A DNA stretch of 64,000 bases, from contig NZ_JADHDA010000004.1 of NCBI RefSeq assembly GCF_015277735.1, positions 248,001 to 312,000 of the forward strand. Direction: 5' to 3'. The notes below the pieces were generated by a model. The model was not told the origin of the DNA. It was given only the letters and a program-made list of their open reading frames with translations, and made no database searches. Each line of letters starts with the position of its first letter. The stretch's first letter is position 1. This document shows, in pieces, positions 26,514 through 41,900 of this stretch. The stretch comes from Psychrobacter sp. NG254 (GTDB lineage Bacteria; Pseudomonadota; Gammaproteobacteria; Pseudomonadales; Moraxellaceae). The position numbers and the translations under genes were made by a program.

Positions 26514-27914
26514 CTATGCAGATGTCTCTTGCTGCACGTGCAAACGCTCAATTCTATCTAGATAACTATGTCCCAACTCTGGCTCTGCCGAGGCTATCCA
26601 AGCAGCATATCCTGACAGCGTATTTAAAGTCTCATCGGCGCGTAATGTGCCGCCTGACTCTAAGTTATGAACGGCTGCTCGTAACATGCGCTTGATTTGG
26701 CGTGATACCCTTGGCACACCGCTACCGTTAACGACCATGCCAGTAACATTATGCTGATTACCTGTACGAATCACACGTGTCTTGTCGTTATTCAGCGCAA
26801 ACCCTTCTTCTCGTAAGATTTTATTCACTGATCCTAAGAGTTGACCAATCAATTGGTTGTGCTTAGTGTCTGAATCGCTCTTTGCAGAGGTGGATTTCTG
26901 ACTGGATACTGGCAAACTAAACGTTAAATCATCGGCATAGCGGCTATAGCGCAAGCCAATTTTGTCAGCCAGTCCCGTTAAGCGTCGATCTAAATTTAAG
27001 CAGACGATATTGGATAGTGCAGGGCTAGTAGGTGCACCTTGTGGCAAAGCTCTATCACCTAACGCCACATAGTAGGTAACGCCATCTTGTTTGATGATTT
27101 GTCTGGGTGCTTCGGTGCACAATAGCGCCAGTAGCGTGGATATTTGTTCTTGATAACCGGCATGACGGAATACGCCTTTGACGCGGCGCCAACTGACACT
27201 AGGGAAAAAGTCTTTGACATCCAGCTTAATAAGCAGCTCACTGTTGCTATGTACAGCTGCATTGGTCACGATAGATTTGCCACGAACAAAACCATGTGCG
27301 GCATCATGCGTCGTTAAGTTGTTTAAGACTTGATTCAAAATCCAGCGCTGTACAAACTTTAAACGCGGTATGGGTGACCAAATTTGACGAGGCGTGCCAT
27401 TGCGTTTGGCAATAGTAAAATGCGAGTAGGCCAGATTGGTTGCGACGTCCCTTTGATAGCAGAGTCCTTTCAACTGGGGCACGGTTAGGTTAACTGCGTC
27501 TGCCAGCTCAGTATGCTTGTTGAGTAGTGGCAATTTATTTTCAATAAGGCGATTGGACGCGTCTTTGATATCCCATTTATCAGCACTGGTGTCATCTGAC
27601 CAGTAGACTTGGTGACCAAGATGGACAATATGGTGGGCTTTATAGGCTTGCCACGCTGATTTTTTAAGGATTCTTTCTTCTGCCGCCTCTTTTTTCAAGG
27701 CTTTTTTATAGCGATCCCGTTCTTTTGGGCTCATTTTATCGACAGGTTGGCGATCTACCATAAAGCCGTTTTTGACCAGCTGCTGCTGAACGTATTGATA
27801 ACGTCCGCCTGCCAGCTCAATGTCCTGCCATAGTTGCTGCCACTGTCGCTCAAAGGGCGTGGCATTAGGCACAGGGGTTATATAATCATTCTGCTGCTCT
27901 GTCTGCGTCGTCAT
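26514..27914 (-). CDS. Retron-type reverse transcriptase
   Basis: A 466-aa reverse transcriptase. The catalytic core is intact: motif A LDVKDFFPSV with Asp232, QGAPTSP (292-298), and YADD (326-329). Two marks specific to retron RTs are present: the NAxxH motif of region X (NAAVH, 218-222) and VTG of region Y (390-392). It should copy a structured RNA into branched msDNA. An N-terminal helical extension of about 140 residues is charged (KERDRYKKALKKEAAEER), and a Ser/Lys/Asp-rich insert (336-354) follows the catalytic loop. It is the last gene of a four-gene operon, 3 bp after the SWIM gene. No maturase or HNH domain is seen, which argues against a group II intron. The likely template RNA lies 14 kb away at 41559-41819. 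Confidence 0.95.
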   Translation of the reverse strand: MTTQTEQQNDYITPVPNATPFERQWQQLWQDIELAGGRYQYVQQQLVKNGFMVDRQPVDKMSPKERDRYKKALKKEAAEERILKKSAWQAYKAHHIVHLGHQVYWSDDTSADKWDIKDASNRLIENKLPLLNKHTELADAVNLTVPQLKGLCYQRDVATNLAYSHFTIAKRNGTPRQIWSPIPRLKFVQRWILNQVLNNLTTHDAAHGFVRGKSIVTNAAVHSNSELLIKLDVKDFFPSVSWRRVKGVFRHAGYQEQISTLLALLCTEAPRQIIKQDGVTYYVALGDRALPQGAPTSPALSNIVCLNLDRRLTGLADKIGLRYSRYADDLTFSLPVSSQKSTSAKSDSDTKHNQLIGQLLGSVNKILREEGFALNNDKTRVIRTGNQHNVTGMVVNGSGVPRVSRQIKRMLRAAVHNLESGGTLRADETLNTLSGYAAWIASAEPELGHSYLDRIERLHVQQETSA

Positions 27915-27917
27915 CCC

Positions 27918-30170
27918 TTACACCCCTTGGTTTTCGATAAAGCCTTTGGCTTCAAATCTGGCAATATGTTGTAAATAAGCCGCTTTGGCTTGAGCAGGTT
28001 GGTTAAACACGAAATGCTGATGTGTGCTGTCATCACCCGTGGTCTGCTCAATCGTTATTTTTTTATGTGCGATGGTCAGATAGATATAAGTGATACAGGT
28101 CTCGTCTGTTGTGGCAATCGCTTTGTCTTTGATACTGTCTGTCTTATTATCTAATGATGGTTTTGATAGCTGTGACAACGCAGATAAATCCATCACCAAA
28201 TCTGAAGATGCTGTGATCGCCTCGTTTTTATACTGAGTGGCAGCTTTAGTGGAATGGCGAATAGAGTGACGAATAGGGTGACGAACAGGCACACGCTGAC
28301 TCAATATGCGGGTGTCATGCCAGCTGTCATTGCCCGTGTTATTTGGGTCGTATTGATTATATCTAAGTCGTAGCGCAATAAGATGCGCGCACACACCATG
28401 AGTGAGACGATGTTGCAAGTACTGCGGACAGCTGCATTCCGCCTTAGTGACTAGCCCTTCATCGCCTAATTGCAGCTGGCTGTGATAAGTACGTCTGTCT
28501 TCTTCGACATGAATATCTGCACGAATAGTAATACCTTTGACGGCAACAGTCTCGACAGAGAACTTCTGCACGGCATCCGCACGGCCAATCAAATCAAAGG
28601 CCTGTTTTTCTGCCTCATTATGGTAAGCAAACTGCGCCATATCAAGCGGTGTCTGCGTCAATGGACGATAATAATAGCTCCCTTGCGCAATATCATAACG
28701 AATCAAGCCTTGCTGCGTTCCTGCTAGTAGCCACTGTCGCACTTGTGCTTGCGTGATAGGTGCTGTTTTTAATTCTGATTCTTGCGTTGTTAGCTGCTGG
28801 GTTAATGCATCTACCGTACTTGGGCGGCGAGTAAGGCTATCAACTACCTTTACTAACCCACTATCAGTACTGTCTGCTACTTGCTTGCTTACTTGTTCAC
28901 GTGCTTGCTTATTATCCGCGCTGAGTGTGTTTTGCTGTGGGCGCTTGGGTAGTAACAAGTCAAAGTTTAACGACTGTGACCAATTGGCTTGGCTAAAGCC
29001 TGTCATGGCAAAGGTGAAATGAAAGCCTTTGCCTTTTAGTGTCCAATAGCTTGGCATGCCTTGACCCAATAGAGATACCGAAACGCTGTCAGTATGTGGC
29101 AACAGGCGTTTTAATAGGCTGAGACGACGGCGACCCCATAAGCGAATCAGCTTCGCTTGTTGACCTTGATAGGGCTTTTGCTGTTGGCTAACTTGGCTGG
29201 TGACAGTAATGTCAAAAGGTTCTAATATAATCACTGGCAGCTGCTGAGGTCTAAGCTCAATTAATAGTCCACGGCGTTTGCCTTTGATATCAGCATGCAT
29301 GCGCAGCTCAAACAGCACGTTGTACAGTGCGATAGGATCAAGATGGATGGTATCTTGTGGTAATTGACCTGCGGATTGAACTTGTAGCAATGCTCTGACC
29401 CAGCTTTTGGGCACATTGATGCGCTTTTCTATGATCTGTTTTTTTACGGTGGGCGTGGCCACTGTACTATCAGTATCTGCTTCAGCGGTCTCTGGCATGG
29501 TTTCGAGTAATTGTAAGCCGACCGCTTCATGACCAATGTCTAATATCGTTTGTTGATGATCGCGAATTTTCTCAATACCGTTAAACAAAGCCGCACTGTA
29601 ATCAATACTAGTGGTGCCAAGGGTAGCTTCGGCACTTTGCCCAAAAATCTCATTGGTCAAGGTCAATTGAGCATAGCAGCCTTCATCACGACTAAATACC
29701 TCAAAGCTAACACCTTGCTCATGCACCTGAATAATCGGGTCCAAAATACAAAAAGCCAGTGGGTCATTGTCGAACAACCACGTGAAATAATCACGCTGCG
29801 CAGTAAATAGGTTTTTATTGCTGCTGGCACGGCGCATCTGCATAAATACCGTGTACGCTGAGCGGTCTTTTGGCACATAACGATAATCACTACTCACCAC
29901 ATCAAACAGCGCTAGCAAACTGTCACGAAAGACAAGGGGAGACTTTACCTTACCGTGGAAGTTAACCTCCGATCGATTCAGCTGAGCAAATAGTGCCACA
30001 TGCTGAGTGTGTTCGGTCGTTTGCGCCTCCGACAGTGAGTCTGACGATTCGTTAACTTGACTGATTTGGCTAGGTGCGGCGTAGTCCAACTGCATCATCA
30101 GGCCATCAGTGTTTGCTACTACGTCTGACTCTGTTTCTGATGCTCGGTCTAATTGATTATCTATAGTCAT
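27918..30170 (-). CDS. SWIM zinc-finger protein of the retron operon
   Basis: A 750-aa protein. A SWIM zinc finger is visible as C579-x-C581...C594-x-H596 (ECSCPQ, VCAHL), a fold that binds DNA or protein. The first 420 residues are mixed alpha/beta of unknown fold. Region 440-500 looks like a winged helix (VDALTQQL...VRQWLLAGTQQGLIRYD...SYYYRP). The last 50 residues (FVFNQPAQAKAAYLQHIARFEAKGF) resemble the second half of a WGR domain, a nucleic-acid-binding module. RHPIRHSIRHS is a small triplet repeat. The start overlaps the preceding stop by 4 bp (ATGA). SWIM proteins beside RTs have been predicted as retron accessory proteins; the role here is inferred. Confidence 0.85.
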   Translation of the reverse strand: MTIDNQLDRASETESDVVANTDGLMMQLDYAAPSQISQVNESSDSLSEAQTTEHTQHVALFAQLNRSEVNFHGKVKSPLVFRDSLLALFDVVSSDYRYVPKDRSAYTVFMQMRRASSNKNLFTAQRDYFTWLFDNDPLAFCILDPIIQVHEQGVSFEVFSRDEGCYAQLTLTNEIFGQSAEATLGTTSIDYSAALFNGIEKIRDHQQTILDIGHEAVGLQLLETMPETAEADTDSTVATPTVKKQIIEKRINVPKSWVRALLQVQSAGQLPQDTIHLDPIALYNVLFELRMHADIKGKRRGLLIELRPQQLPVIILEPFDITVTSQVSQQQKPYQGQQAKLIRLWGRRRLSLLKRLLPHTDSVSVSLLGQGMPSYWTLKGKGFHFTFAMTGFSQANWSQSLNFDLLLPKRPQQNTLSADNKQAREQVSKQVADSTDSGLVKVVDSLTRRPSTVDALTQQLTTQESELKTAPITQAQVRQWLLAGTQQGLIRYDIAQGSYYYRPLTQTPLDMAQFAYHNEAEKQAFDLIGRADAVQKFSVETVAVKGITIRADIHVEEDRRTYHSQLQLGDEGLVTKAECSCPQYLQHRLTHGVCAHLIALRLRYNQYDPNNTGNDSWHDTRILSQRVPVRHPIRHSIRHSTKAATQYKNEAITASSDLVMDLSALSQLSKPSLDNKTDSIKDKAIATTDETCITYIYLTIAHKKITIEQTTGDDSTHQHFVFNQPAQAKAAYLQHIARFEAKGFIENQGV

Positions 30171-33100
30171 TGACTGTCTCCTTCACCCTGATTGCTTTTT
30201 TGACTGCTGTCCTGACTATTTTGTGCTGCGATGGTCGAGCTAGGTTGCGCCTCCATATTGCCAGATGATAATGGACGCTTTTGCTGTGCTCGTATCATGG
30301 CACGTTGCCAGCGGCGTAGTACTTTATAAGCAAGCTTCTGAATGTCTGAGTTTTCATGTGCCATGAGCGTCGTCAGCCATTGTTCAATATTTGGATCATG
30401 TAGCTGCCCAAGCGCTTCGATAGCACGGATGCGAACCGTCAGCTCCATGTTGTCATTACTCGCACAATGATAGAGTGCGTCAGCGTCTTTGGCTCTGATC
30501 CACTGTAGCAGCTGTTGATTGATTGGTATCTCGGTAGACGAGCCCTTATGTTTTAGCGCATTCTTTACTATAGTTAGTATGGATTTTTGGGTAGATGTAC
30601 CGCTTTGTTCAATACGAGCAATCACAGTTCCTAGCAAGGCTTGGTTGTCATAAGTGAGCGGCGATTGAACCGTAGTTGATACGCTGCTCAATGTTGGCAC
30701 TATATTTGATAACACCTTATCGTCAGCGACTGGTCTGGCCAGTAGTCCTAACAGCGCTTGCTGCCACCAACCGCTAACAGTCGTAGAGAGCAGTGGAATA
30801 GAGGTGATGGTCAATGGTTGACGCGCATCATTGAGCCAATCAAGCATTGCCACGATCTGCTTAGTAGCCGCTTTATCGACAGAACCTTTAGCAGTTGTAA
30901 TGGCCACATGACGCATGATTAGCCAAACCAACTGTTTGATGGTGCTACCTACTTGTTCAACCATCTCGATCCACTGGTTGTTGCTGATAGTAGTCGGACT
31001 GCGGTTGATGGTATCGATCAGCGTGTGCCATTGCTCGCTAGCTGTATCAAAACGCTGCTGTAATGTCGCAACCATTTCTTTGTCTAAATAGTTAGTTGGA
31101 TACTGGGTCAGATAACACAGTCCAATATGCTGTGTCAGTGTGTTGTTACTGGTAATCAACGCGGTAAGCTGTGATGTTGGCATATCTTGCTTGGCCATAA
31201 TGGCATTTTGCAGTGCTATCAAGATGTCGGATGGTAAGTGCGCGCCATGCTGGGTGATAAATGCTGCCAGATCATCGATGCTGCTATTATCAATGATACG
31301 CTTTAGACTCAAATGCTCAGTCTCTTCTATAAAGTCATCATTATGGCTTTGGATGGCTGCCCAGTCATAAGGATAAACCTGCATCGCAAGACTGCCCCAA
31401 GTTTTCTGCGCCGCAGTATAAGCCACCATAAGCACAACATGGTCTAAATTATTTTGCTTTAAAATATCTAATATTAATGCTTTATTGGCATCGTTATTAT
31501 TCATCTGCAGTAGCCATACCGCATGCCTTTGTGGACGGAAAAATATGGCTTTATCAAGATGAGTGCGTATATAGCTGCGGATTTGTTCCCAAGCAGGCAT
31601 TGTATTCAACCAGCGCAGTCCATTTAACCAATGAATAATAGCTGGGTTGGTTGTTGTCAATACGGGGTCCGACAAATGCGATTTTAGTAGCTCAAAGATA
31701 TGCGTGCTGTGTTCAAAGTCACCACCTTGTGCAAGGCGACCTAAGGCTTCGCTAGCCACGTCTTGCAGGTAGTGCTCATCATCTTCGGCCAGTTTGATTA
31801 ACTTATCATAGGCTTTGTATAAGGTATGAACCTGTAAGTTTTTATCAGCATTGTCCGCAGGCGAGCTATCATTAGGCGAGTGAGTATTTTGACTTTGGTT
31901 GTTACTGCCTAGCAACTCGCCAATGGCTAATACACTGCAGCTGCGGAATTCAGCATCAGGGTTATAATCTATCGTTGCCATCAAGATATTGACCCCATCA
32001 GCATGACCACATTTAGCGAGTCCTTCAGCCGCGGCAAATTGCACATCGGCGTCTTTATTACGCAGGGCATTTTGTAATGAGGCAATGCTGCTATGTCGTC
32101 TTTTGGCACGATAGGCCAGTGTCTCGACCAATTTAAAAGTATATTTAGCTGGCATCTGCTCATAGGCTCGCGCTAAAGCGCTATCAATGCGCGAGGATAA
32201 ATCGCTGTCGTCTGATTGTACCCATGCAAGTGACGGTAATAGCTGCGCGGCAAGCGCATAATCACTATGACTCATAAGCGTAGTAAACAGTGACAACAAG
32301 ACTTGCGAGTCTCTAGGGTGCTGACGTTGTAACCAGCGGGTGTCTTCACGCTCGTCCAAATAATCATCGATGTTTTGATCGTAACCACTGATTTTTACTA
32401 AGGTATCAAATAAATATTTACGCTCTTCTTTATTTTTTTGCGGGGTGTGCTCAAACAGACTTTCTAAACGCTGTAGTAATGGCGCCACGAGATTCGTGTT
32501 ACGTAGGTCAGCGATATCACTATAAATAAACTGCTTAGGTTTGTTGATATGTGGATCATCAAGTAAGGCTAATAATCGTAAGTGCGCTTCATTAGCAACT
32601 TGTTCAGCAGTAGCAATATCAAAGCTACTCTCTAAACCACTTTCAAAGCGACCCTCTAAAGTGCTGTTATTGATGAATTGGTACGACGTGAGTGCCTCAA
32701 CGAGTAAGTTCCAGCTACGGTATTTCTCATTACTGGACTGAGCGTCTTCAGCAAAATCAAACAAGTTATCAAATAGCGTGCTGTCCGCAAAGAGTACGTC
32801 ATGAAACTCGACCAGTTGACTCAGTGCTTGATATTTTGCATTCCAATCATCACTCTTGATGGCATGCAGCAAAAACGTCAGTTTGTCTTGGCGCTGCACT
32901 GACGGCGATTGACTGTTTGCACAGGGCGTGACAATGACTTGTTTCCATTCAGCAACGATCTGAGGCAGTAACGACTGACAATAGGTATGTAGCCCAAGTA
33001 AGCTGGCTGGCAGATGGCCTAGTCGACCTTTTAGCAGCTGATAGGTCTCTTCTGCTAAGGTGTGATTATTGGTTTTTAACAAATCAATGAGTTGTTGATC

Positions 33101-36100
33101 AGCGCTACTACTGACAGTCGCTGTATCCGATGGTTTGCTTTGCTGCTGTACGGCATTGTTATTTGCGGTATCTAGCAATAGATCCAAGCCGCGTTTGACC
33201 ATATCACGGTAGGGCGTGCTCATGGCATAGTCAGCCAGCTTTTTGGCAGGCATGTCCAGCTTATACAAGCATGCCCAAGCCAACTCACGAGTGTCAAAAC
33301 TACTGTGGTTGAGTAGTGGCAACAACACGCGACTGGTACTGTCTCGCCAGTCCTCATCGTTATTAGTGTTGTTATTAGTGTTAAGCTGCGATGATTGAGT
33401 AGCAAGCCACATTAGCCCTCGAATGGCTTGGTCTGTGGTTCTGCTATTAGCATAATAATCATCGTCTGCGCGTATAACGCCAATCCAAGCGCCAAAAGCA
33501 AGGGACTGGTATGGATAATGCACCTCAGAGCTGTCTTGTTTGTCAGTAGGAGAGCTACCGACTGTTTGCGCACTGCCTACTACCTCAACGATGGCTGTAA
33601 CGGGGTGAGCACTTAACAATGCCTGCAAACTGCGTTGCCATTTTTGTAATGTCTCAAAAACATCGTCCTCATCATCATAGTAGTCATGGGCGAGTAATTC
33701 AGATAAGTTACAAATGACACTAATGGTTTGCGCGCGTACCAATGGCTGCTGATGTCGACTAAGGTTCGCGAGCTGTTGTAAGTTTTCAGTACTGACGGTT
33801 GTCAGAATACTTGCTCGGATAGAGACCGTATTATGCGACTGTCTTTTAATACCACCTTTATCTACCGTGTTTGGTATGGCATCCATCATCATCGTGATGA
33901 CTTCAGAGTGAGAAGATAAAACACTGCCTAATTGACGTGACAAGTAATCACTTAGGTACTGCCACGTTGACGATAGTGCTTGCTGGTTATTAGGATGTTG
34001 TACGTCATTTGGGTAACGAGCGAGTATGTTGGCGTAGACTACTGCCGTGTCATTATCCGCAAAGCTTAATGCTCCTATCAGTCGATTGGGCCTGACAGTG
34101 CCGGTAACGTTCGTTTCAGGAGCTTGCCTGCCAACTTGCAAGCCATTCTGTAAATCATTAAATATCAATAATAGTCTGGCTGCTACGGCATAGGACTCTG
34201 ACTCAAACAAAGGCTGTAGTTGACGTGCATGTGTAATACCTAAACCGTGCTGCGCTTGAAGCCAATGCGTAGGCGTCATCGGTGCAACAAGCGTACTAAG
34301 GTTGTCTGTTTCGTCTCTTATGTCATGAGTAAGGAAGTACTGCCCGCGAGCATCACCTAAAATAGCCAAACATAAACTGGCTGATTGACTAATAATGGCT
34401 TTCTCATATTTTTGCCATTTCACCAGTAGATCAATGTCCTCAAAAGAAACTATCTGCGTAATCTTTGGTGCAAGAGGTTTAAAATCAGCATCAGGGTGGT
34501 GTAGATATTTAGCATACCAACCTAGTGCATCATGCTTTGATGGGTATGCCAGTTTAGACAAACCAAACAGTGCTTGGCTTACATGATTGTGCCACTGGGT
34601 ATAGATGTCACTTTTCTTGCCTTGAGAGGGCATAGGCAACTCTAAGTAGTGCTTAAAGACTTGATACGCTTGTTCATCACTCCGCTGTGCCTGTTCTTCG
34701 TCAGCATATAGGCGTGATTGGCTGGCCAGTAGTTGAGCGACTGTTAGCTGGATGTCAGGATAAGGGCTGTTGAGGGCCGCGGTAATCAATGCTTCGTGAT
34801 GATTCGGTTGATCATCGGTACTACTATCATCTAGGCTACTGTGATCCGCTAAAATAGTAGGCTGTAAGTCTGTCAGCGCCAAAGCGACCGTCAAAGCTTG
34901 TTTACGTAGCTCAATACTGTCATCAGCGAACATGGCCACGAGAGCTGGCATCAGTTGTGTCAGCTGAGTCGTATTCGCTCTGGCTTGCACTGTCGTAAGG
35001 GCCAGTTGCTTGGTATCAGCATAAGGGCTGGCAAGTGCATTTAACATGACGTCAGCAAACCCTAAATGCTTGCTTTGCTTAAGTGCGATGTCAAAGGCTT
35101 GCTTACGGATAGCGGCAAACGTATCTGCAAAAAACAAGGTTAAGACAGCTTGATTTGTCTTTTGACTATCAGTTTCTTCAACTTTATTTGTTTTATGCTT
35201 CGATGTCATCGCTAGCAAAAGTCGTTGCCATTCTTCTATCGCAACTTGATGCACATCTTCAAAGAGGCTTTGCTGCAATAATTCGATGATGTCAACGATA
35301 GCACTGTCAGAAGTGTTTTTAGAAACATTGTCAGATGACTGCTTAAATTGGCGGTTTAATAGAACTTTAACCACTTCTAACCGAATGCTGGTAAAAGGGT
35401 TGTTCAATGCCTGTAGCAGTATGTCTGTCATCTCTGACGACATCTGAGCGCTTTTATCACTGCTATCACCACTATTTGAGCTATCTGGTGCGACATGCTT
35501 TAAAAACAGCGCTAAAGATTGTTCGTGAATATCTTGATGTTTAGAAGCAAAACCTGTCGCTGCCCAAGACAATGCATTGTCTGCCAACTTACCATAGGCT
35601 TGCATGGCCACTTGGCGCACGCCAGCGTCCTTATCATCTAGTAATGTCGGTAGGACTGCTTTGGCGTCTTCTATATTTAAATGACCAAGCGCGGTGGCGA
35701 CACCAGCACGGATGATGGCGCTGTCATCATGGCTCATTAGGCTAATCAGGGTGCCAAACGCTCGTTTGTCTTGTAGACAGGCCAGTGCATAAGCCGCTCG
35801 GAAACTGATATCTTCATGACTATTGCTTAAACTTTGTAATAAAGGCTCTAACGTGTCATTGCTTAGATTTATAGATTCAGTAGCAGACTTCTTGGATTTG
35901 GCCGTTTTAGCCTTACTTTTAGACTTAGATGTTTGGGTACTATCTGCTTGCGAGATAAAATCTTGCGTAGATAAGGTTAAACGTATCGCCTCATCGGATT
36001 GTTTAACATTATTATCATTTACCGCTGTGCTGCTAGCATTATCTAGTAGCGTGCCGCGCAGTAAGCGAAAGTCATCAAAATCAGTTAGGGTACGTAATGT

Positions 36101-37912
36101 TTGCGTGTCGCCTTGCTGTTTTAACGCCTCTATCAACTTGGGTTGAGACAATAATGAGACGTAAAACGCCGTTTGCCTAATCTCTGTATTACGATGATTC
36201 TGTAGCAGCATCAACTGACGCGAGACTTCAAGATGGTTTAGCATACCGCGCTGATACAGACGAATTAACCCTGATTGGACAATGTCTGACTGATTGCAGT
36301 CTAATGCCATCAAATCTGCTTGAGGACTGTTGTCAGGCAATAGTGTCTCAAGCGAGGCCAATGCTTGCTTGCGAATATTCGCAAAACTGTGTGACAAAGC
36401 GTCTCTTAAAACAGGTAAGATGCGGCGCTGGCTCGTAGCATCCTTCATCGCGACCTTTAGGTAACCTTGTAACGCAGAAGCCACCACTTCCTCGTAGTAA
36501 CGGTTTTTAAAGGCTTCTTCTAGATAATGCAGTGGGCGCTTCGCCGTACTTGCGCGGTCGGCCAAGGCATGAAAAGCAGCAAGACGTACTTTTGCACTGT
36601 GAGCCGAGCTTAGTTGCTGCTCTAAAATCTTTGCAGTTTTATCCAGTTTTGTTGTCGCAATCCACTCTACCAGTTGCAATGCTTGATTGGCCGTGAGTGT
36701 GTCGCTATCAGCAAGTAATTTTTTAACCAGCTCTAACGTTTGGTTATCTGCTTGTGCCTGTAGCAGCGCTAGGCCTTCTTTAAACGACACATCGTTATTG
36801 TTTGAGGCATCTGTCAGTAACTGGCTGATTCTCTGATAGCCGTCTTTGATGATATAAGTAACTGGCAGCAGCTTACTATTTTGCGAGGTGCTACTCTGTG
36901 ACGCACTTTGAGTATGGTCAATAGGTATGAAACGTAGGCTCTGATCAGCACTGACGACGATGAGCGTTGGTTGTTCAGCGTAAGAAGATAAGACGATCTG
37001 TCGACCTTTGGTTAGATCCTCTTTACAGCTATTTGGTTGACCCTTATCAAATGCCCATGATTTGACGCTCTTGTCATCGGCGGCAGTGAAGAGCCGAGTG
37101 TCTGAGACACAAAGCGCCGTGATCATTTCGCTGTGTTGGCTAGACTTGGCTCTATCGACAGGGTGTAGATCGCCTTGGACATGTGTACGGTATAAGCACT
37201 TATCTACACCTGCGGAAAAAAAATACTGCCCGACTGGCTCAAAACAAAGCGCGTTTACTTTACCTTGGTGGAGCTGTTTGCGGCTACTTAGATTAAGCTG
37301 GGCTTCATCTGAGGTCCATTGATAGCTACTAACATCTCCCGTTTTATCTGCTATGACTAACCACGAGCTATCACTTGAGGTTGCTAGCGCTGTCAATGCG
37401 GATTCTTTACTTGATGCTGCTATAGAAGACGAATAAGGCTCAATGATGACAGTACTGCTGGCTTGACTGTCCTGATAAGGCCATACTACGATATGTTTCG
37501 GATATAAGATAGCCAGTGCATCTTGTAGTGGTGCCATTGCTATGGCACGGCCTATAGCACTGTTATTATTTTCAGGTGCGTCAAGCAAGGATGTAGCACT
37601 GGTCTTCTTAACTTTCTTTGCTTGCCAATCCGTTTGGTAAAGATGACCATCGTCACCAATCATTACCACCGTACTGTCATCTATTTTAGTGATGGCTTGC
37701 ATCGCACAAGGCAGTGCAGTTGTCGATAAGCTAAATTGCTCACCTTGTTGATCGAGGACGTATAAGACCGTCGCAGATGCTTGCTGCTGGCGAGTAATAA
37801 AAAGACTGCGCCCATCTTGCTTGCTTGTTTTTTGAATTGCCGCTTGAGTACTGTTGGCCTTACTGACTAAGCCAATAATTTGACCCCAATAGGGGAGTGT
37901 TATTGTTTTCAT
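30167..37912 (-). CDS. Giant WD40/HEAT-repeat protein of the retron operon
   Basis: A 2581-aa cytoplasmic protein, very large for this genome. Residues 1 to about 360 form a WD40-like beta-propeller (repeats such as GKVNALCFEPVGQYFFSAGVDKCL and MITALCVSDTRLFTAADDKSVKSW). Nearly all the rest is HEAT/ARM helical repeats, for example DISFRAAYALACLQDKRAFGTL, DSAIIRAGVATALGHL, DAGVRQVAMQAYGKL, DVQFAAAEGLAKCGHADGVNIL and IRAIEALGQLHDPNIEQWL. Linkers rich in Ser/Asp/Asn interrupt it. No enzyme motif is seen, so it looks like a scaffold or sensor. It overlaps the SWIM gene by 4 bp and follows the BRCT gene by 70 bp. Predicted retron-associated ARM-repeat proteins are the closest concept I know. Confidence 0.85.
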   Translation of the reverse strand: MKTITLPYWGQIIGLVSKANSTQAAIQKTSKQDGRSLFITRQQQASATVLYVLDQQGEQFSLSTTALPCAMQAITKIDDSTVVMIGDDGHLYQTDWQAKKVKKTSATSLLDAPENNNSAIGRAIAMAPLQDALAILYPKHIVVWPYQDSQASSTVIIEPYSSSIAASSKESALTALATSSDSSWLVIADKTGDVSSYQWTSDEAQLNLSSRKQLHQGKVNALCFEPVGQYFFSAGVDKCLYRTHVQGDLHPVDRAKSSQHSEMITALCVSDTRLFTAADDKSVKSWAFDKGQPNSCKEDLTKGRQIVLSSYAEQPTLIVVSADQSLRFIPIDHTQSASQSSTSQNSKLLPVTYIIKDGYQRISQLLTDASNNNDVSFKEGLALLQAQADNQTLELVKKLLADSDTLTANQALQLVEWIATTKLDKTAKILEQQLSSAHSAKVRLAAFHALADRASTAKRPLHYLEEAFKNRYYEEVVASALQGYLKVAMKDATSQRRILPVLRDALSHSFANIRKQALASLETLLPDNSPQADLMALDCNQSDIVQSGLIRLYQRGMLNHLEVSRQLMLLQNHRNTEIRQTAFYVSLLSQPKLIEALKQQGDTQTLRTLTDFDDFRLLRGTLLDNASSTAVNDNNVKQSDEAIRLTLSTQDFISQADSTQTSKSKSKAKTAKSKKSATESINLSNDTLEPLLQSLSNSHEDISFRAAYALACLQDKRAFGTLISLMSHDDSAIIRAGVATALGHLNIEDAKAVLPTLLDDKDAGVRQVAMQAYGKLADNALSWAATGFASKHQDIHEQSLALFLKHVAPDSSNSGDSSDKSAQMSSEMTDILLQALNNPFTSIRLEVVKVLLNRQFKQSSDNVSKNTSDSAIVDIIELLQQSLFEDVHQVAIEEWQRLLLAMTSKHKTNKVEETDSQKTNQAVLTLFFADTFAAIRKQAFDIALKQSKHLGFADVMLNALASPYADTKQLALTTVQARANTTQLTQLMPALVAMFADDSIELRKQALTVALALTDLQPTILADHSSLDDSSTDDQPNHHEALITAALNSPYPDIQLTVAQLLASQSRLYADEEQAQRSDEQAYQVFKHYLELPMPSQGKKSDIYTQWHNHVSQALFGLSKLAYPSKHDALGWYAKYLHHPDADFKPLAPKITQIVSFEDIDLLVKWQKYEKAIISQSASLCLAILGDARGQYFLTHDIRDETDNLSTLVAPMTPTHWLQAQHGLGITHARQLQPLFESESYAVAARLLLIFNDLQNGLQVGRQAPETNVTGTVRPNRLIGALSFADNDTAVVYANILARYPNDVQHPNNQQALSSTWQYLSDYLSRQLGSVLSSHSEVITMMMDAIPNTVDKGGIKRQSHNTVSIRASILTTVSTENLQQLANLSRHQQPLVRAQTISVICNLSELLAHDYYDDEDDVFETLQKWQRSLQALLSAHPVTAIVEVVGSAQTVGSSPTDKQDSSEVHYPYQSLAFGAWIGVIRADDDYYANSRTTDQAIRGLMWLATQSSQLNTNNNTNNDEDWRDSTSRVLLPLLNHSSFDTRELAWACLYKLDMPAKKLADYAMSTPYRDMVKRGLDLLLDTANNNAVQQQSKPSDTATVSSSADQQLIDLLKTNNHTLAEETYQLLKGRLGHLPASLLGLHTYCQSLLPQIVAEWKQVIVTPCANSQSPSVQRQDKLTFLLHAIKSDDWNAKYQALSQLVEFHDVLFADSTLFDNLFDFAEDAQSSNEKYRSWNLLVEALTSYQFINNSTLEGRFESGLESSFDIATAEQVANEAHLRLLALLDDPHINKPKQFIYSDIADLRNTNLVAPLLQRLESLFEHTPQKNKEERKYLFDTLVKISGYDQNIDDYLDEREDTRWLQRQHPRDSQVLLSLFTTLMSHSDYALAAQLLPSLAWVQSDDSDLSSRIDSALARAYEQMPAKYTFKLVETLAYRAKRRHSSIASLQNALRNKDADVQFAAAEGLAKCGHADGVNILMATIDYNPDAEFRSCSVLAIGELLGSNNQSQNTHSPNDSSPADNADKNLQVHTLYKAYDKLIKLAEDDEHYLQDVASEALGRLAQGGDFEHSTHIFELLKSHLSDPVLTTTNPAIIHWLNGLRWLNTMPAWEQIRSYIRTHLDKAIFFRPQRHAVWLLQMNNNDANKALILDILKQNNLDHVVLMVAYTAAQKTWGSLAMQVYPYDWAAIQSHNDDFIEETEHLSLKRIIDNSSIDDLAAFITQHGAHLPSDILIALQNAIMAKQDMPTSQLTALITSNNTLTQHIGLCYLTQYPTNYLDKEMVATLQQRFDTASEQWHTLIDTINRSPTTISNNQWIEMVEQVGSTIKQLVWLIMRHVAITTAKGSVDKAATKQIVAMLDWLNDARQPLTITSIPLLSTTVSGWWQQALLGLLARPVADDKVLSNIVPTLSSVSTTVQSPLTYDNQALLGTVIARIEQSGTSTQKSILTIVKNALKHKGSSTEIPINQQLLQWIRAKDADALYHCASNDNMELTVRIRAIEALGQLHDPNIEQWLTTLMAHENSDIQKLAYKVLRRWQRAMIRAQQKRPLSSGNMEAQPSSTIAAQNSQDSSQKSNQGEGDSQ

Positions 37913-37982
37913 GGTGTTATCTCAGTTGAGGTGACGTCATATTTTTTAAGTATCTTTTATCTATATCTGTTTGCAAAAGCCA

Positions 37983-40900
37983 TCAAGCAGATGCCACGGG
38001 CTGCAGATTTTTAGATAGCTCAGGATAGCGATGCAATAACCGTGTGACGGCAACCAAACACGCATGACGCTCCATCTTGCCTGCAGAGTGCGTAAAGGTG
38101 AACAGTGTGGGCATAATGAGCGCTGCAAAGGTGCTGTCAGCCAATGCCACATCACGAAAAGTCTCAATCAACGCCAGTTTGGCACGACTCGCAGATATAG
38201 GTTTTAGCATGATGTTGCTATCTGACTCAGCGTGCTCTGATGACTGTGGTGATGCTGAGGTTTTATCTGAGTAACGTTGTTGCTTATGCTTACTGGTGTC
38301 ACTAGTACTTGGCTCTTGTGAACCGCCTAGACGTCCAGGTGGTAACTCGAATAGACCACGACGTAGCAGCATTAATAACTGATCAACTTCTGCAGGTAAG
38401 CTTGTCAAACGTTTATCTGTCTGCTCTGTTATGACTGGTTGAGCGATGCTGTCTTTGACAGCGTCTTTATTGATACTGGTTGGTTGCCAGTTTGGAGACA
38501 CGTGACGCGCCTTATAGTGTTTCCATAGCATGGTTACGGCGGCATAACGGACTTCACGGTCTGTGCTTTGGGTCAATCGATATAAAGACTGCACATCTTG
38601 GAAATTGGCATGACGCTGCAGCAAGGCGATACCGATTTGGCGTGCGACTCGCGCTTTGCTTTCAATCAACGCATTCAACATGCCAGCATTCAGTTGTGCT
38701 AACTGGATGTGATAACGTCGATTGGCAACGGATGGCTTGTCCAATAGCGCACGCTTCAATAGTTGCGTGACCTCAGTATAGGGAGATTCTGCCATCATCA
38801 GCCATAGAGCTGGCGTTGGTTGCCACATCGCCATCTCATACTCACTCAGTAATAAGCCAAATTCTCGCAGCTGGCTGTTACGGTGTTGCAGCAAAGGAAT
38901 GACACGCGCCGCATTAAAGAACGAAGAAGGGATAATCGCATCGGGATCGACTGGTCTGTCTGTCAATGCCATGCAGATATGTTCATGATGATGACTGAGG
39001 TAGCTGATCGCAAGCTCACTGATAGGTGCAGTAGCATCATCTATTGCCATATGCCACAGTGCATTGGCACCTGCAAAAGTATCGTCTTCAGACACCTCTC
39101 TCGATTGACCACTCAGCATCTGTAAAAAGGCGGTTTCGGAAATAATCTTTAGCGGCGCACCATCAGCGATTAAGCTTTCGGCTTTAACTTGCTTGCTACC
39201 TTTACGGCCATTTCCATATAACGGTGAGCCATCATCACCGATGACCAAGTAATCTAACTTGCCGTTGACAGCACCACTGATGGCACCATTAGCCGCTTTC
39301 ACAACTTTTTCGGCCTCGCCACGAGTCATGCTTTGCATCTTGCCTGTGAATAGATAGCGTTGGCCGGTTAAATCTACTTCAGTAGCAGCATCGCTATTTG
39401 AGTCTTTATTGTCAGTGCCATTACTGGAAGCGTTACTGAAAGCATTGTTAGTAGAGGCGCCTTCATTACTGTCAAGATATGCGATAAAGTCGGCAGGCAA
39501 GAACCCTTTGTTAATGCGCTCAATAGCAAATTCACGATAGAGCGCTTGTTCGCTATGCGCAAGATTCATAAGCCAGTCGAAACCTAAGTCTATCGGCGCA
39601 AACCGGCGCACATCAGACAGCCAATTCCTCACGTTTTCTGCTAAGTACTCATCAAAGGCCAAGTGCTTTTGCCAGTTTTTAATAGGAGTGTCAGCAGATT
39701 TTAATTGTTCAACATATTCACTCACTTGCCAATCAGGCTCATAGGCAAGTGCATGCCAATAGCTCATATCAAGCGTTGCTGCTGACAGTACATCTTCATC
39801 AAACCAATCGGTAATAGTCGCTTGCGATAGTGGATTTAATAATAGCATTTGCCATATTGCCGCATTTACTTGGCTCAAATCCAAACGTCTGAGCTGATCC
39901 AACGCAAAGTCCATGCAGTCGCTGTCGTTATGAGCAGAGAAGTCCTGTTGCTCTGGTATATCTAGCTGCTGGGCGACGCGAATAAAGTATTCAGCACCCA
40001 GCTCTTTGGCACTATAAAGCTCAGGCAGTTTTTTTATCGCAAACTTTACGCTGTGTGTTCTGCCGCTAGTCAATCGTTCAAAAAACCACTCAGGGGTCAA
40101 GTCACGTCGCGTAAAGTGTTTGCTAAGTTGCTTGCTCGCGGTTTGATAGTGATGCTCTGTGTCTAATAGCTGCCCCCAACCGTTGACACCGATATCAGCA
40201 ACAGGGTCACGACTCAGGATATTGTTGATGGCAAATGCTCTAACAGGCTCATAATCTGACATGGCCAGTAGCATCAGCTCAGTAAGAGATAAGTTTTGAG
40301 CATAGCTTTTGGCATAGCCAATCGCATATTGATAGGCGGCAGGATAGTGTGAATGGAGTAGCTGCAGTACGACTTGATGCAAGCCCAATGTTTGAAATTT
40401 AGACTTTTCAAAATGCGGTGCATTCTCTAATAGCCAAACAATCATCTCATCACGCGCTTTGCTATGCACTTGTCCAGCAGATAGATATTGTAGCGTCTCA
40501 CCACTCACATCACGTAGTTGGGTCTTAAAGTCGTGTTTTAGGCTATCGGTTGCAAACTGTCTGATAGCTTCATTTTTGGCGATAGCCAGTAACTCAATAA
40601 GTGGCTCAGGGTCTCGCTGCCACGCCTCAGCGAAGGCGCGACCTTTTGCATCAAAGAGCTTGCGAGGTGAGTGACTGCTAAATCGATTGACGCCATAATC
40701 AAGGCTGTTATGGAAGCAAATATGATTGAGTACCCAGCTGCTTGTTTGTTCATGGCTGCCAGCCGTCATGGTTTCGTCATAGCTGGCGAGTACAGAGACG
40801 GCAGCATCAATGTAGCCAATTGGCATTTGCTGACCCAGCTGCCGCAGATAACGCCATGCTCTGAGGCTCATATAGGTTTTAGTGGCTAGGCTGACCGCAG

Positions 40901-41381
40901 AGTTGGCGGTTTGATTAAAGCGCTGTAAATCGATCTTGGCGGCAATTTGTCCAAATATCTCACAATCTTGAGAAAATTCAGCTTGCTTATAAATGCGCTT
41001 CAATCCTTTCCACACACCATAGCTGACTGGCAAAGCTGTAATGGCTTGTTTTAGAATAGTTCTAGAGTACGCGCTGCCATCTTCCCACAGTGCAGTCAAT
41101 ATTAAGTGGATTTTGTAGCGATCAGGGAGAGGGTAGACGCCTTCGTCTGCCTCAAGCTTGGCAATCATTGCCACACGCTCTGCAAACTGTACTTCGGGGT
41201 TTTGCTCCCGAAACTGATGACTTAGAATTTTGTTCAAAAATCGCTCAAATGTCAGTTCGTGCTCGGGGATGGGCGCCTCAGGAATCGCATCAGCTTGAGT
41301 GGCCAATGTACATAGTTTATCGACCAAACTGGGATCTTGGGCTTGCCAAGCTTGCTGAATTTGTGAGAATGACAGACTCAT
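37983..41381 (-). CDS. Helical-repeat protein with internal BRCT domain, first gene of the retron operon
   Basis: A 1132-aa protein. Residues 1-640 and 770-1130 are all-helical, with HEAT-like units (EPVRAFAINNILSRDP, DREVRYAAVTMLWKHY). Between them, after a low-complexity Ser/Asn/Thr/Asp linker (640-668), sits a clear BRCT domain (about 670-756: LTGQRYLFTGKMQSMTRGEA, LDYLVIGDDGSP, KAESLIADGAPLKIISETAFL), of the type found in DNA ligase and RFC1 that can bind DNA ends or 5'-phosphates. No nuclease or ATPase motif is visible. AAGG lies 10 nt before the ATG. It begins the minus-strand operon and starts 178 bp from the divergent retron RNA. Function is unknown. Confidence 0.82.
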   Translation of the reverse strand: MSLSFSQIQQAWQAQDPSLVDKLCTLATQADAIPEAPIPEHELTFERFLNKILSHQFREQNPEVQFAERVAMIAKLEADEGVYPLPDRYKIHLILTALWEDGSAYSRTILKQAITALPVSYGVWKGLKRIYKQAEFSQDCEIFGQIAAKIDLQRFNQTANSAVSLATKTYMSLRAWRYLRQLGQQMPIGYIDAAVSVLASYDETMTAGSHEQTSSWVLNHICFHNSLDYGVNRFSSHSPRKLFDAKGRAFAEAWQRDPEPLIELLAIAKNEAIRQFATDSLKHDFKTQLRDVSGETLQYLSAGQVHSKARDEMIVWLLENAPHFEKSKFQTLGLHQVVLQLLHSHYPAAYQYAIGYAKSYAQNLSLTELMLLAMSDYEPVRAFAINNILSRDPVADIGVNGWGQLLDTEHHYQTASKQLSKHFTRRDLTPEWFFERLTSGRTHSVKFAIKKLPELYSAKELGAEYFIRVAQQLDIPEQQDFSAHNDSDCMDFALDQLRRLDLSQVNAAIWQMLLLNPLSQATITDWFDEDVLSAATLDMSYWHALAYEPDWQVSEYVEQLKSADTPIKNWQKHLAFDEYLAENVRNWLSDVRRFAPIDLGFDWLMNLAHSEQALYREFAIERINKGFLPADFIAYLDSNEGASTNNAFSNASSNGTDNKDSNSDAATEVDLTGQRYLFTGKMQSMTRGEAEKVVKAANGAISGAVNGKLDYLVIGDDGSPLYGNGRKGSKQVKAESLIADGAPLKIISETAFLQMLSGQSREVSEDDTFAGANALWHMAIDDATAPISELAISYLSHHHEHICMALTDRPVDPDAIIPSSFFNAARVIPLLQHRNSQLREFGLLLSEYEMAMWQPTPALWLMMAESPYTEVTQLLKRALLDKPSVANRRYHIQLAQLNAGMLNALIESKARVARQIGIALLQRHANFQDVQSLYRLTQSTDREVRYAAVTMLWKHYKARHVSPNWQPTSINKDAVKDSIAQPVITEQTDKRLTSLPAEVDQLLMLLRRGLFELPPGRLGGSQEPSTSDTSKHKQQRYSDKTSASPQSSEHAESDSNIMLKPISASRAKLALIETFRDVALADSTFAALIMPTLFTFTHSAGKMERHACLVAVTRLLHRYPELSKNLQPVASA

Positions 41382-41505: not shown

Positions 41506-41537
41506 ACATAATTTGGTTTTGCAATTATGTATTGACA
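41505..41537 (+). promoter_or_regulatory. Palindrome and -35 box in front of the retron RNA
   Basis: Arms TACATAATT (41505-41513) and AATTATGTA (41523-41531), 9 bp perfect, with a 9-nt spacer. Directly after it stands a consensus -35 TTGACA (41532-41537) reading towards the retron RNA. I find no good -10 at 16-18 bp (CAAACT at 41556-41561 is weak), so the promoter might need an activator or use another element. It lies back to back with the operon promoter. Confidence 0.45.
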
Positions 41538-41558
41538 ATAATAACTGTTATGAGGCAA

Positions 41559-41819
41559 ACTTAATGCGTTGTGAGATTTAGCGTTTCACCGTTTACGGTG
41601 AGGGGCGACGTTGCGTCGTCCGCGAGTCAAGCCATTACATTTTACCCAAGGAAGACTGTTTCAGTCCTGCTAATACCTAGATAAAGGCCCTAGTGTCATT
41701 AGCTCGCTGGCGCAATCACGCAATCGTGATTGAGCTAATGCACTAGGGCCTTTATCTAGGTGCAGTCCAGTGAGTCTTCCATGTACCAGGTCATGAGGTA
41801 GATTACACAACAATTGAGT
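41559..41819 (+). ncRNA. Predicted retron msr-msd RNA, divergent from its operon
   Basis: The plus strand folds like a textbook retron RNA. a1 (41559-41580) pairs with a2 (41799-41819) in three blocks: ACTTAAT/ATTGAGT, GTTGTG/CACAAC, GATTTA/TAGATT, separated by a GC/A internal loop and one A-A mismatch; several pairs are G-U. Directly after a1 comes TTAGC, so G41581 is the likely branching guanosine. Two msr hairpins follow: TCACCG-TTTA-CGGTGA (41586-41601) and GGGCGACG-TTG-CGTCGTCC (41603-41621). The msd is a long hairpin: outer stem GGAAGACT/AGTCTTCC (41650-41657 with 41773-41780), a perfect 20-bp stem (41676-41695 with 41741-41760), a 9-bp stem (41697-41705 with 41732-41740), and a 7-bp stem (41714-41720 with 41725-41731) closed by CAAT. 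Because of the G-U pairs the fold is good only on the plus strand. Reverse transcription should start opposite about 41798. Confidence 0.85.
41676..41760 (+). repeat. Long msd inverted repeat
   Basis: A near-perfect 85-nt hairpin inside the predicted msd: 20 bp, a single bulged T (41696), 9 bp, an 8-nt one-sided bulge (GCTGGCGC, 41706-41713), 7 bp and a 4-nt loop. This is the part expected to become the DNA hairpin of the msDNA. Confidence 0.9.
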
Positions 41820-41856
41820 GTGACATCATTATGATGGCATTCAAGGTCTTTAAAGC

Positions 41857-41900
41857 AAAACCGGAGTAGGGCTGTTTATTCAGCGCTACTCCGGTTTTTT
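41857..41900 (+). terminator. Terminator of the retron RNA
   Basis: Stem CCGGAGTAG (41861-41869) with CTACTCCGG (41886-41894), inner GCTG/CAGC, loop TTTATT, followed by six T on the plus strand only. It ends a plus-strand transcript 38 nt after a2, supporting the plus-strand reading of the RNA. Confidence 0.87.

Follow-up and report, generated by a model that had tools for sequence, protein, structure and literature searches.

Where does a retron keep its RNA when there is no room for it in front of the reverse transcriptase (RT)? The question is raised by a 64,000-nucleotide (nt) stretch of the genome of Psychrobacter sp. NG254 (hereafter the window, whose own numbering is used for all positions), in which a minus-strand operon of about 15 kb (genes at 26514-41381) ends with a retron RT gene. 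According to PMC6868368, it is upstream of the RT that retron RNAs have been looked for, and in Retron-Eco1 and other validated retrons the msr-msd lies there, sometimes with an open reading frame in between. A preliminary description of the window had instead pointed to a plus-strand RNA at the far end of the operon. We conclude, with a probability of roughly 0.92, that the element at 41562-41817 is the msr-msd RNA of a type XIII retron and would act in trans with an RT encoded 13.6 kb away on the opposite strand. This identification follows from the fold of the element and its compensatory changes, from a G-U bias towards one strand and from its co-occurrence with the operon, as well as from homologous RNAs in the canonical place before the RT in relatives and from the lack of room before the RT of the window.

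Fold and covariation of the predicted RNA

Folding of 41550-41830 gave a minimum free energy of -122.7 kcal/mol (z -10.3), which none of 200 shuffled sequences equalled. The parts of a retron RNA follow one another on the plus strand in the order first described, with msr 5' of msd, complementary a1 and a2 flanks and a G directly after a1 (Table 1). The motif at this point is TTAGC, as in Ec86, and its G41581, already singled out as the candidate branch nucleotide, is the same in all 22 rows of our main alignment (A2). Both msr hairpins of the preliminary description recur in the consensus fold, and only the stem lengths need correction: the a1/a2 stem, put at about 19 pairs, has 11 that are kept in relatives, which do not share the outer pairs formed in the window itself, and the msd stem is indeed perfect but measures 21 rather than 20 bp. 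At two loci (L013 and L050, the latter in genome G483) the msd hairpin differs from that of the window (41675-41761) by an exact inversion of its tip, the flanking RNA being unchanged.

Compensatory changes in the a1/a2, msr and msd stems were found in three alignments that were built separately. A2 holds 22 of the 24 distinct RNAs free of N; two decayed loci treated below (L063 and L065) were excluded, the RNAs of L062/L014 contain N and that of L059 is cut. In it, 31 of 77 pairs have changed on both sides with pairing kept (shuffled mean 9.2, with 0/500 shuffles as high), 18 of these changes falling among the 30 pairs of the msd hairpin, and 98.9% of cells pair, as against 35-43% when partners are slid by one to three columns. 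G-U cells outnumber A-C cells by 102 to 5, which favours pairing in a plus-strand RNA and bears out the strand preference initially deduced from the G-U pairs of the window. The second alignment (A3), of 14 RNAs in the canonical position from a family labelled f11 here, has the same fold plan and both-side changes at 30 of 78 pairs (shuffled mean 19.2, 0/500). The third (A4), of 11 RNAs from a family labelled f156 with the cut L155 excluded, has them at 42 of 78 pairs (shuffled mean 24.4, 0/500), and 29 of the 30 pairs of its msd hairpin have been rewritten in some sequence with pairing retained.

A covariance model (R1) trained on 22 rows, the window sequence among them, finds a single site in the window, with a minus-strand echo of 63.3 bits that reflects the palindrome, as against 310.7 bits on the plus strand. 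A TTGACA upstream of the element, at 41532-41537, is present in most aligned relatives. Downstream, a terminator had been described on the plus strand: a terminator-like hairpin (-30.1 kcal/mol) followed by a run of T does lie there, but our pattern scan did not list it.

Distance from the reverse transcriptase

Subtraction of the RT start (27914) from the start of the RNA (41562) gives 13,648 nt on opposite strands, in agreement with the earlier estimate of about 14 kb. Retrons usually, though not by definition, carry the msr-msd ahead of the RT and on its strand, and the window departs from this. A search for another retron RNA immediately ahead of the RT found none. The SWIM gene that precedes the RT ends 3 nt before it, and at the examined loci where the RNA heads the operon these two genes are always spaced by -4 to 3 nt (17/17). 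The last 400 nt of the SWIM gene have no special fold (z -1.1, with 16 of 100 shuffles as stable), and R1 locates no second plus-like RNA site in the window.

Co-occurrence with the operon

Among 105 genomes of the genus, the RNA was found in 29 and SWIM_XIII in 25, all 25 lying within the 29 (Fisher 2.4e-20, a value that relatedness of the genomes makes less than a true p). In one further case (G515) the RNA and the first gene are on separate contigs. The RNAs are 84-99% identical to that of the window, while their 150-nt flanks range from 1 to 88% (18 loci). Across 274 genomes of the class, R1 matched only the genome of the window and one other (G859), and the operon is present in both.

Three RNA-bearing genomes (G456, G469 and G508, with loci L063, L064 and L065) hold relics. 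Of the first gene they retain some 78 residues, with no match to SWIM, and the msd is short by 59 nt, so that one arm of its hairpin is gone; the rest of the RNA is still 90% alike. A proteasome-subunit-like gene comes after the truncated first gene at these loci.

At L004, L039 (G541) and L059 (G542) the contig breaks off within the RNA hairpin or next to it, and short-read assemblies may therefore lose this RNA.

Placement in relatives

In Psychrobacter, every RNA-bearing genome whose flank includes the first operon gene (26/26, counting the relics) has the RNA divergent from it, just as had been noted for the window; in three further RNA-bearing genomes a contig end stands in place of the gene. 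The full operon with a divergent RNA also occurs in another genus of the same family (G555), so that opposite-strand placement at the operon head holds for 27 of 27 readable genomes of Psychrobacter and one other genus. Two other arrangements were found. In one further genome of the same family (G564) and in all eight readable genomes of f156, the RNA likewise heads an operon of the same gene order, some 11.5-12.1 kb from the RT, but it lies on the operon's strand (9/9 readable genomes together); R1 matched an RNA in 10 of 63 f156 genomes, twice at contig ends. In f11 (for example G196 and L027), where the RT and SWIM proteins belong to the same families as those of the window, the homologous RNA recognised by R1 instead occupies the SWIM-RT gap, on the strand of the RT and directly before it (14/14 loci). 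These loci differ from the window further in having CTTGC in place of TTAGC after a1 and an RT of 684 aa. Both they and a third kind of type XIII locus (L017-type) have a WGR_XIII protein before SWIM, and the 2581-aa WD40/HEAT gene and the BRCT-bearing first gene of the window are absent from both as such. The SWIM-RT gap of L017-type loci holds a1/a2-like arms, seen by eye only.

Two f156 genomes carry tandem RNAs before one operon (L148/L156 at G1187 C1:2420153-2420751, and L151/L157 at G1177 C7:93446-94050). The members of each pair are 74% and 78% identical, respectively, with similar msr but different msd stems. Weak SWIM rows in f11 (L166-L168 and L034-L037) were not counted as retron loci; R1, run on L166-L168 only, gave no match there. 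At L145 (G900 C39:120000-138000), genes resembling WGR/HEAT and SWIM are adjacent, with no match to the RT of the window within 18 kb.

A tree of SWIM and RT (31 rows, among them 11 of the 14 loci of f11 and a further 12 Psychrobacter genomes) suggests how these arrangements are related. The canonical and the divergent loci form two sets, with one change each (support of 100 in the Shimodaira-Hasegawa-like approximate likelihood ratio test), the same-strand operon-head loci fall between them, and two changes account for all three states. We take the canonical place to be the older because, according to PMC6868368, known retrons use it. The RNA would then have left its RT-proximal site for the head of the operon and later been inverted in an ancestor of Psychrobacter and one other genus. 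Judged from these comparisons of sequence, placement on the opposite strand is specific to a lineage; in relatives the RNA either precedes the RT or heads the operon on the operon's own strand.

The operon and its surroundings

By PADLOC models the operon is a type XIII retron, with RT_XIII, SWIM_XIII and HEAT-ARM/WGR_XIII found together, so that the system is of a kind already known. Its RT, SWIM and HEAT/WGR proteins match the models by wide margins and its RNA has the retron layout; where it departs from type XIII retrons is in the place of this RNA, which heads the operon on the opposite strand rather than preceding the RT. The class reportedly goes back to Mestre et al. 2020. Retron RTs are marked by NAxxH, YADD and VTG motifs, and the RT of the window has NAAVH at residue 218, YADD at 326 and VTG at 390. 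Its closest solved chains are retron RTs, the nearest being that of Retron-Eco1 (Ec86; 7v9u, E 7e-37), a retron which also resembles the window in having msr 5' of msd in one cassette. The genome contains a single RVT_1 gene, which is this one.

Table 1. Features of the predicted retron RNA and its operon (positions in the window)
Feature	Position	Strand	Remarks
Predicted msr-msd RNA	41562-41817	+	Span of covariance model R1; R1 match 310.7 bits
a1 arm (GTTGTGAGATTTA)	41568-41580	+	Partner 41799-41811; helix 1 of consensus fold
a2 arm (TAGATTACACAAC)	41799-41811	+	Helix 1 of consensus fold
Candidate branch G of TTAGC	41581	+	Invariant across 22 rows of A2; branch role proposed from known retrons
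msr hairpin 1	41585-41602	+	Helix 2: 7 pairs, both-side changes in 2
msr hairpin 2	41603-41621	+	Helix 3: 8 pairs, both-side changes in 2, cells paired 100%
msd with outer stem 41647-41657/41773-41783	41647-41783	+	Helices 4-7
msd hairpin, perfect 21-bp stem 41675-41695/41741-41761	41675-41761	+	Helix 6: 30 pairs, 18 with both-side changes
Terminator-like hairpin, then T run	41857-41898	+	Fold -30.1 kcal/mol; absent from pattern-scan list
Promoter-like TTGACA (41532-41537) and weak second hexamer (41556-41561), spacing 18 nt	41532-41561	+	By eye
First operon gene, 1132 aa, HEAT/WGR/BRCT-like	37983-41381	-	HEAT-ARM_XIII 1107.6 bits; WGR_XIII 2.6e-38; BRCT weak
Second gene, 2581 aa, WD40-like and HEAT repeats	30167-37912	-	HEAT-ARM_XIII 1837.1 bits; HEAT_2, WDR55
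Third gene, SWIM_XIII, 750 aa, predicted PCNA-like domain at residues 70-397	27918-30170	-	SWIM_XIII 3e-152
Retron reverse transcriptase, 466 aa	26514-27914	-	RT_XIII 1.5e-155, 516.8 bits

All 13 named records among close relatives of the first gene are from Psychrobacter. No relative of the SWIM protein was found among viral contigs and phages, an alignment of the first gene had no match among viral contigs, and a plasmid search returned one matching record, from Methylobacterium bullatum. A proteasome-subunit-like gene (PF00227; 41976-42716, minus strand) adjoins the RNA in the window and in its closest relatives; in loci farther removed (L051-L061, for example) the 1.5-kb flank lacks it.

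Alternative explanations

Several results weigh against the identification of 41562-41817 as a retron RNA or against the history proposed for it. No plus-strand promoter or terminator was found at the element by the pattern scan, and nothing in the window reached the gathering score in an Rfam scan. Three of the 29 RNA-bearing genomes, those with the relics, lack the operon. The R1 matches in f11 are weak (19.9-33.5 bits, E 8e-8 to 4e-4, the E-values being rough owing to a short calibration), and R1 matched none of three L017-type loci, so that kinship of the RNA extends to 14/14 f11 but 0/3 L017-type loci. Finally, the tree was a quick one with long branches and a midpoint root only, and for this reason we infer the direction of the RNA's moves rather than read it from the tree.

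A regulatory function is conceivable: the element could control the operon, as an attenuator or another regulatory RNA, or be an antisense or small RNA, rather than serve as the template of the RT. It adjoins the first operon gene, from which it diverges, and in close relatives the intergenic sequence is conserved on both sides of it. Against this, the element has the retron layout, from a1 through TTAGC, the msr hairpins and the msd to a2, and has homologues directly before the RT and on its strand throughout f11, and on the strand of the operon in every readable genome with the same-strand operon-head arrangement. Rewriting of the msd stem with pairing kept, in A2 and A4 alike, is what a template that depends on shape would undergo, and we give the regulatory explanation only a slim chance. 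It is also very improbable that the element is a decayed relic and that the RT really copies some other RNA, such as one that overlaps the SWIM gene at its end. The upstream position of the RNA in known retrons, as given in PMC6868368, would speak for this; the 3-nt gap, the unremarkable fold of the SWIM gene end and the single R1 site speak against it, and the element is under selection for pairing, whereas real decay is seen at the three relic loci.

What remains to be weighed is the strongly palindromic character of the element, visible in the minus-strand score of R1, which together with the contigs that end within it and the inverted tips at L013 and L050 could indicate a mere DNA inverted repeat, such as a cruciform, a transposon end or an assembly artefact. 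This we find hardly credible, given that the excess of G-U over A-C cells is a mark of RNA pairing on one strand, that the element occupies the same place in many separate assemblies, and that the msr hairpins and a1/a2 arms lie outside the palindrome and also covary. An msr-msd RNA separated from its RT thus remains our preferred explanation.

A possible mechanism

The predicted msr-msd would form a short, separate transcription unit that runs from the promoter-like to the terminator-like sequence. Because it lies about 14,000 bases from the RT gene and on the opposite strand, RNA and RT would have to come from separate transcripts and meet afterwards. The RT may then bind the msr and a1/a2, prime at G41581 and copy the msd into a multicopy single-stranded DNA (msDNA) of about 140-150 nt. 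RT and msDNA could assemble with the BRCT/HEAT, WD40/HEAT and clamp-like SWIM proteins into a complex that would guard the cell against phage, and a role of the retron system in fighting viruses is likely.

Residues 70-397 of the SWIM protein are predicted to adopt a PCNA-like sliding-clamp fold; a profile of the SWIM alignment (A5) found no chain in the PDB at E <= 1. It is possible, if doubtful, that in type XIII retrons of Psychrobacter and its kin a stand-alone trans RNA moved 11-14 kb to the operon head and then flipped, that the hairpin of its msDNA is gripped by the PCNA-like SWIM clamp on giant BRCT/HEAT scaffolds, and that phage are sensed via this clamp-on-msDNA complex.

Implications

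Neither the placement of a retron RNA in trans on the opposite strand nor its history was found in the literature searched, which lacked the two likeliest papers. The search returned no paper joining retron, XIII and msDNA, and no retron paper among the matches listed names 'type XIII'. It is plausible that the RNAs of such loci have been missed because of their divergent and distant placement. According to PMC9252829, PADLOC scans whole genomes with msr-msd covariance models.

A trans-encoded template would be convenient for tools, in that RNA and RT could be dosed apart, and if the clamp fold predicted for the SWIM protein is real, retron defence would include a sliding clamp. The proposed move of the RNA is testable because its placements form a series on one tree. 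A conserved RNA that lies across a 15-kb operon from the RT gene, and on the opposite strand, would mean that a retron template is separable from its RT in nature, and RTs that are listed without an RNA may therefore have one elsewhere.
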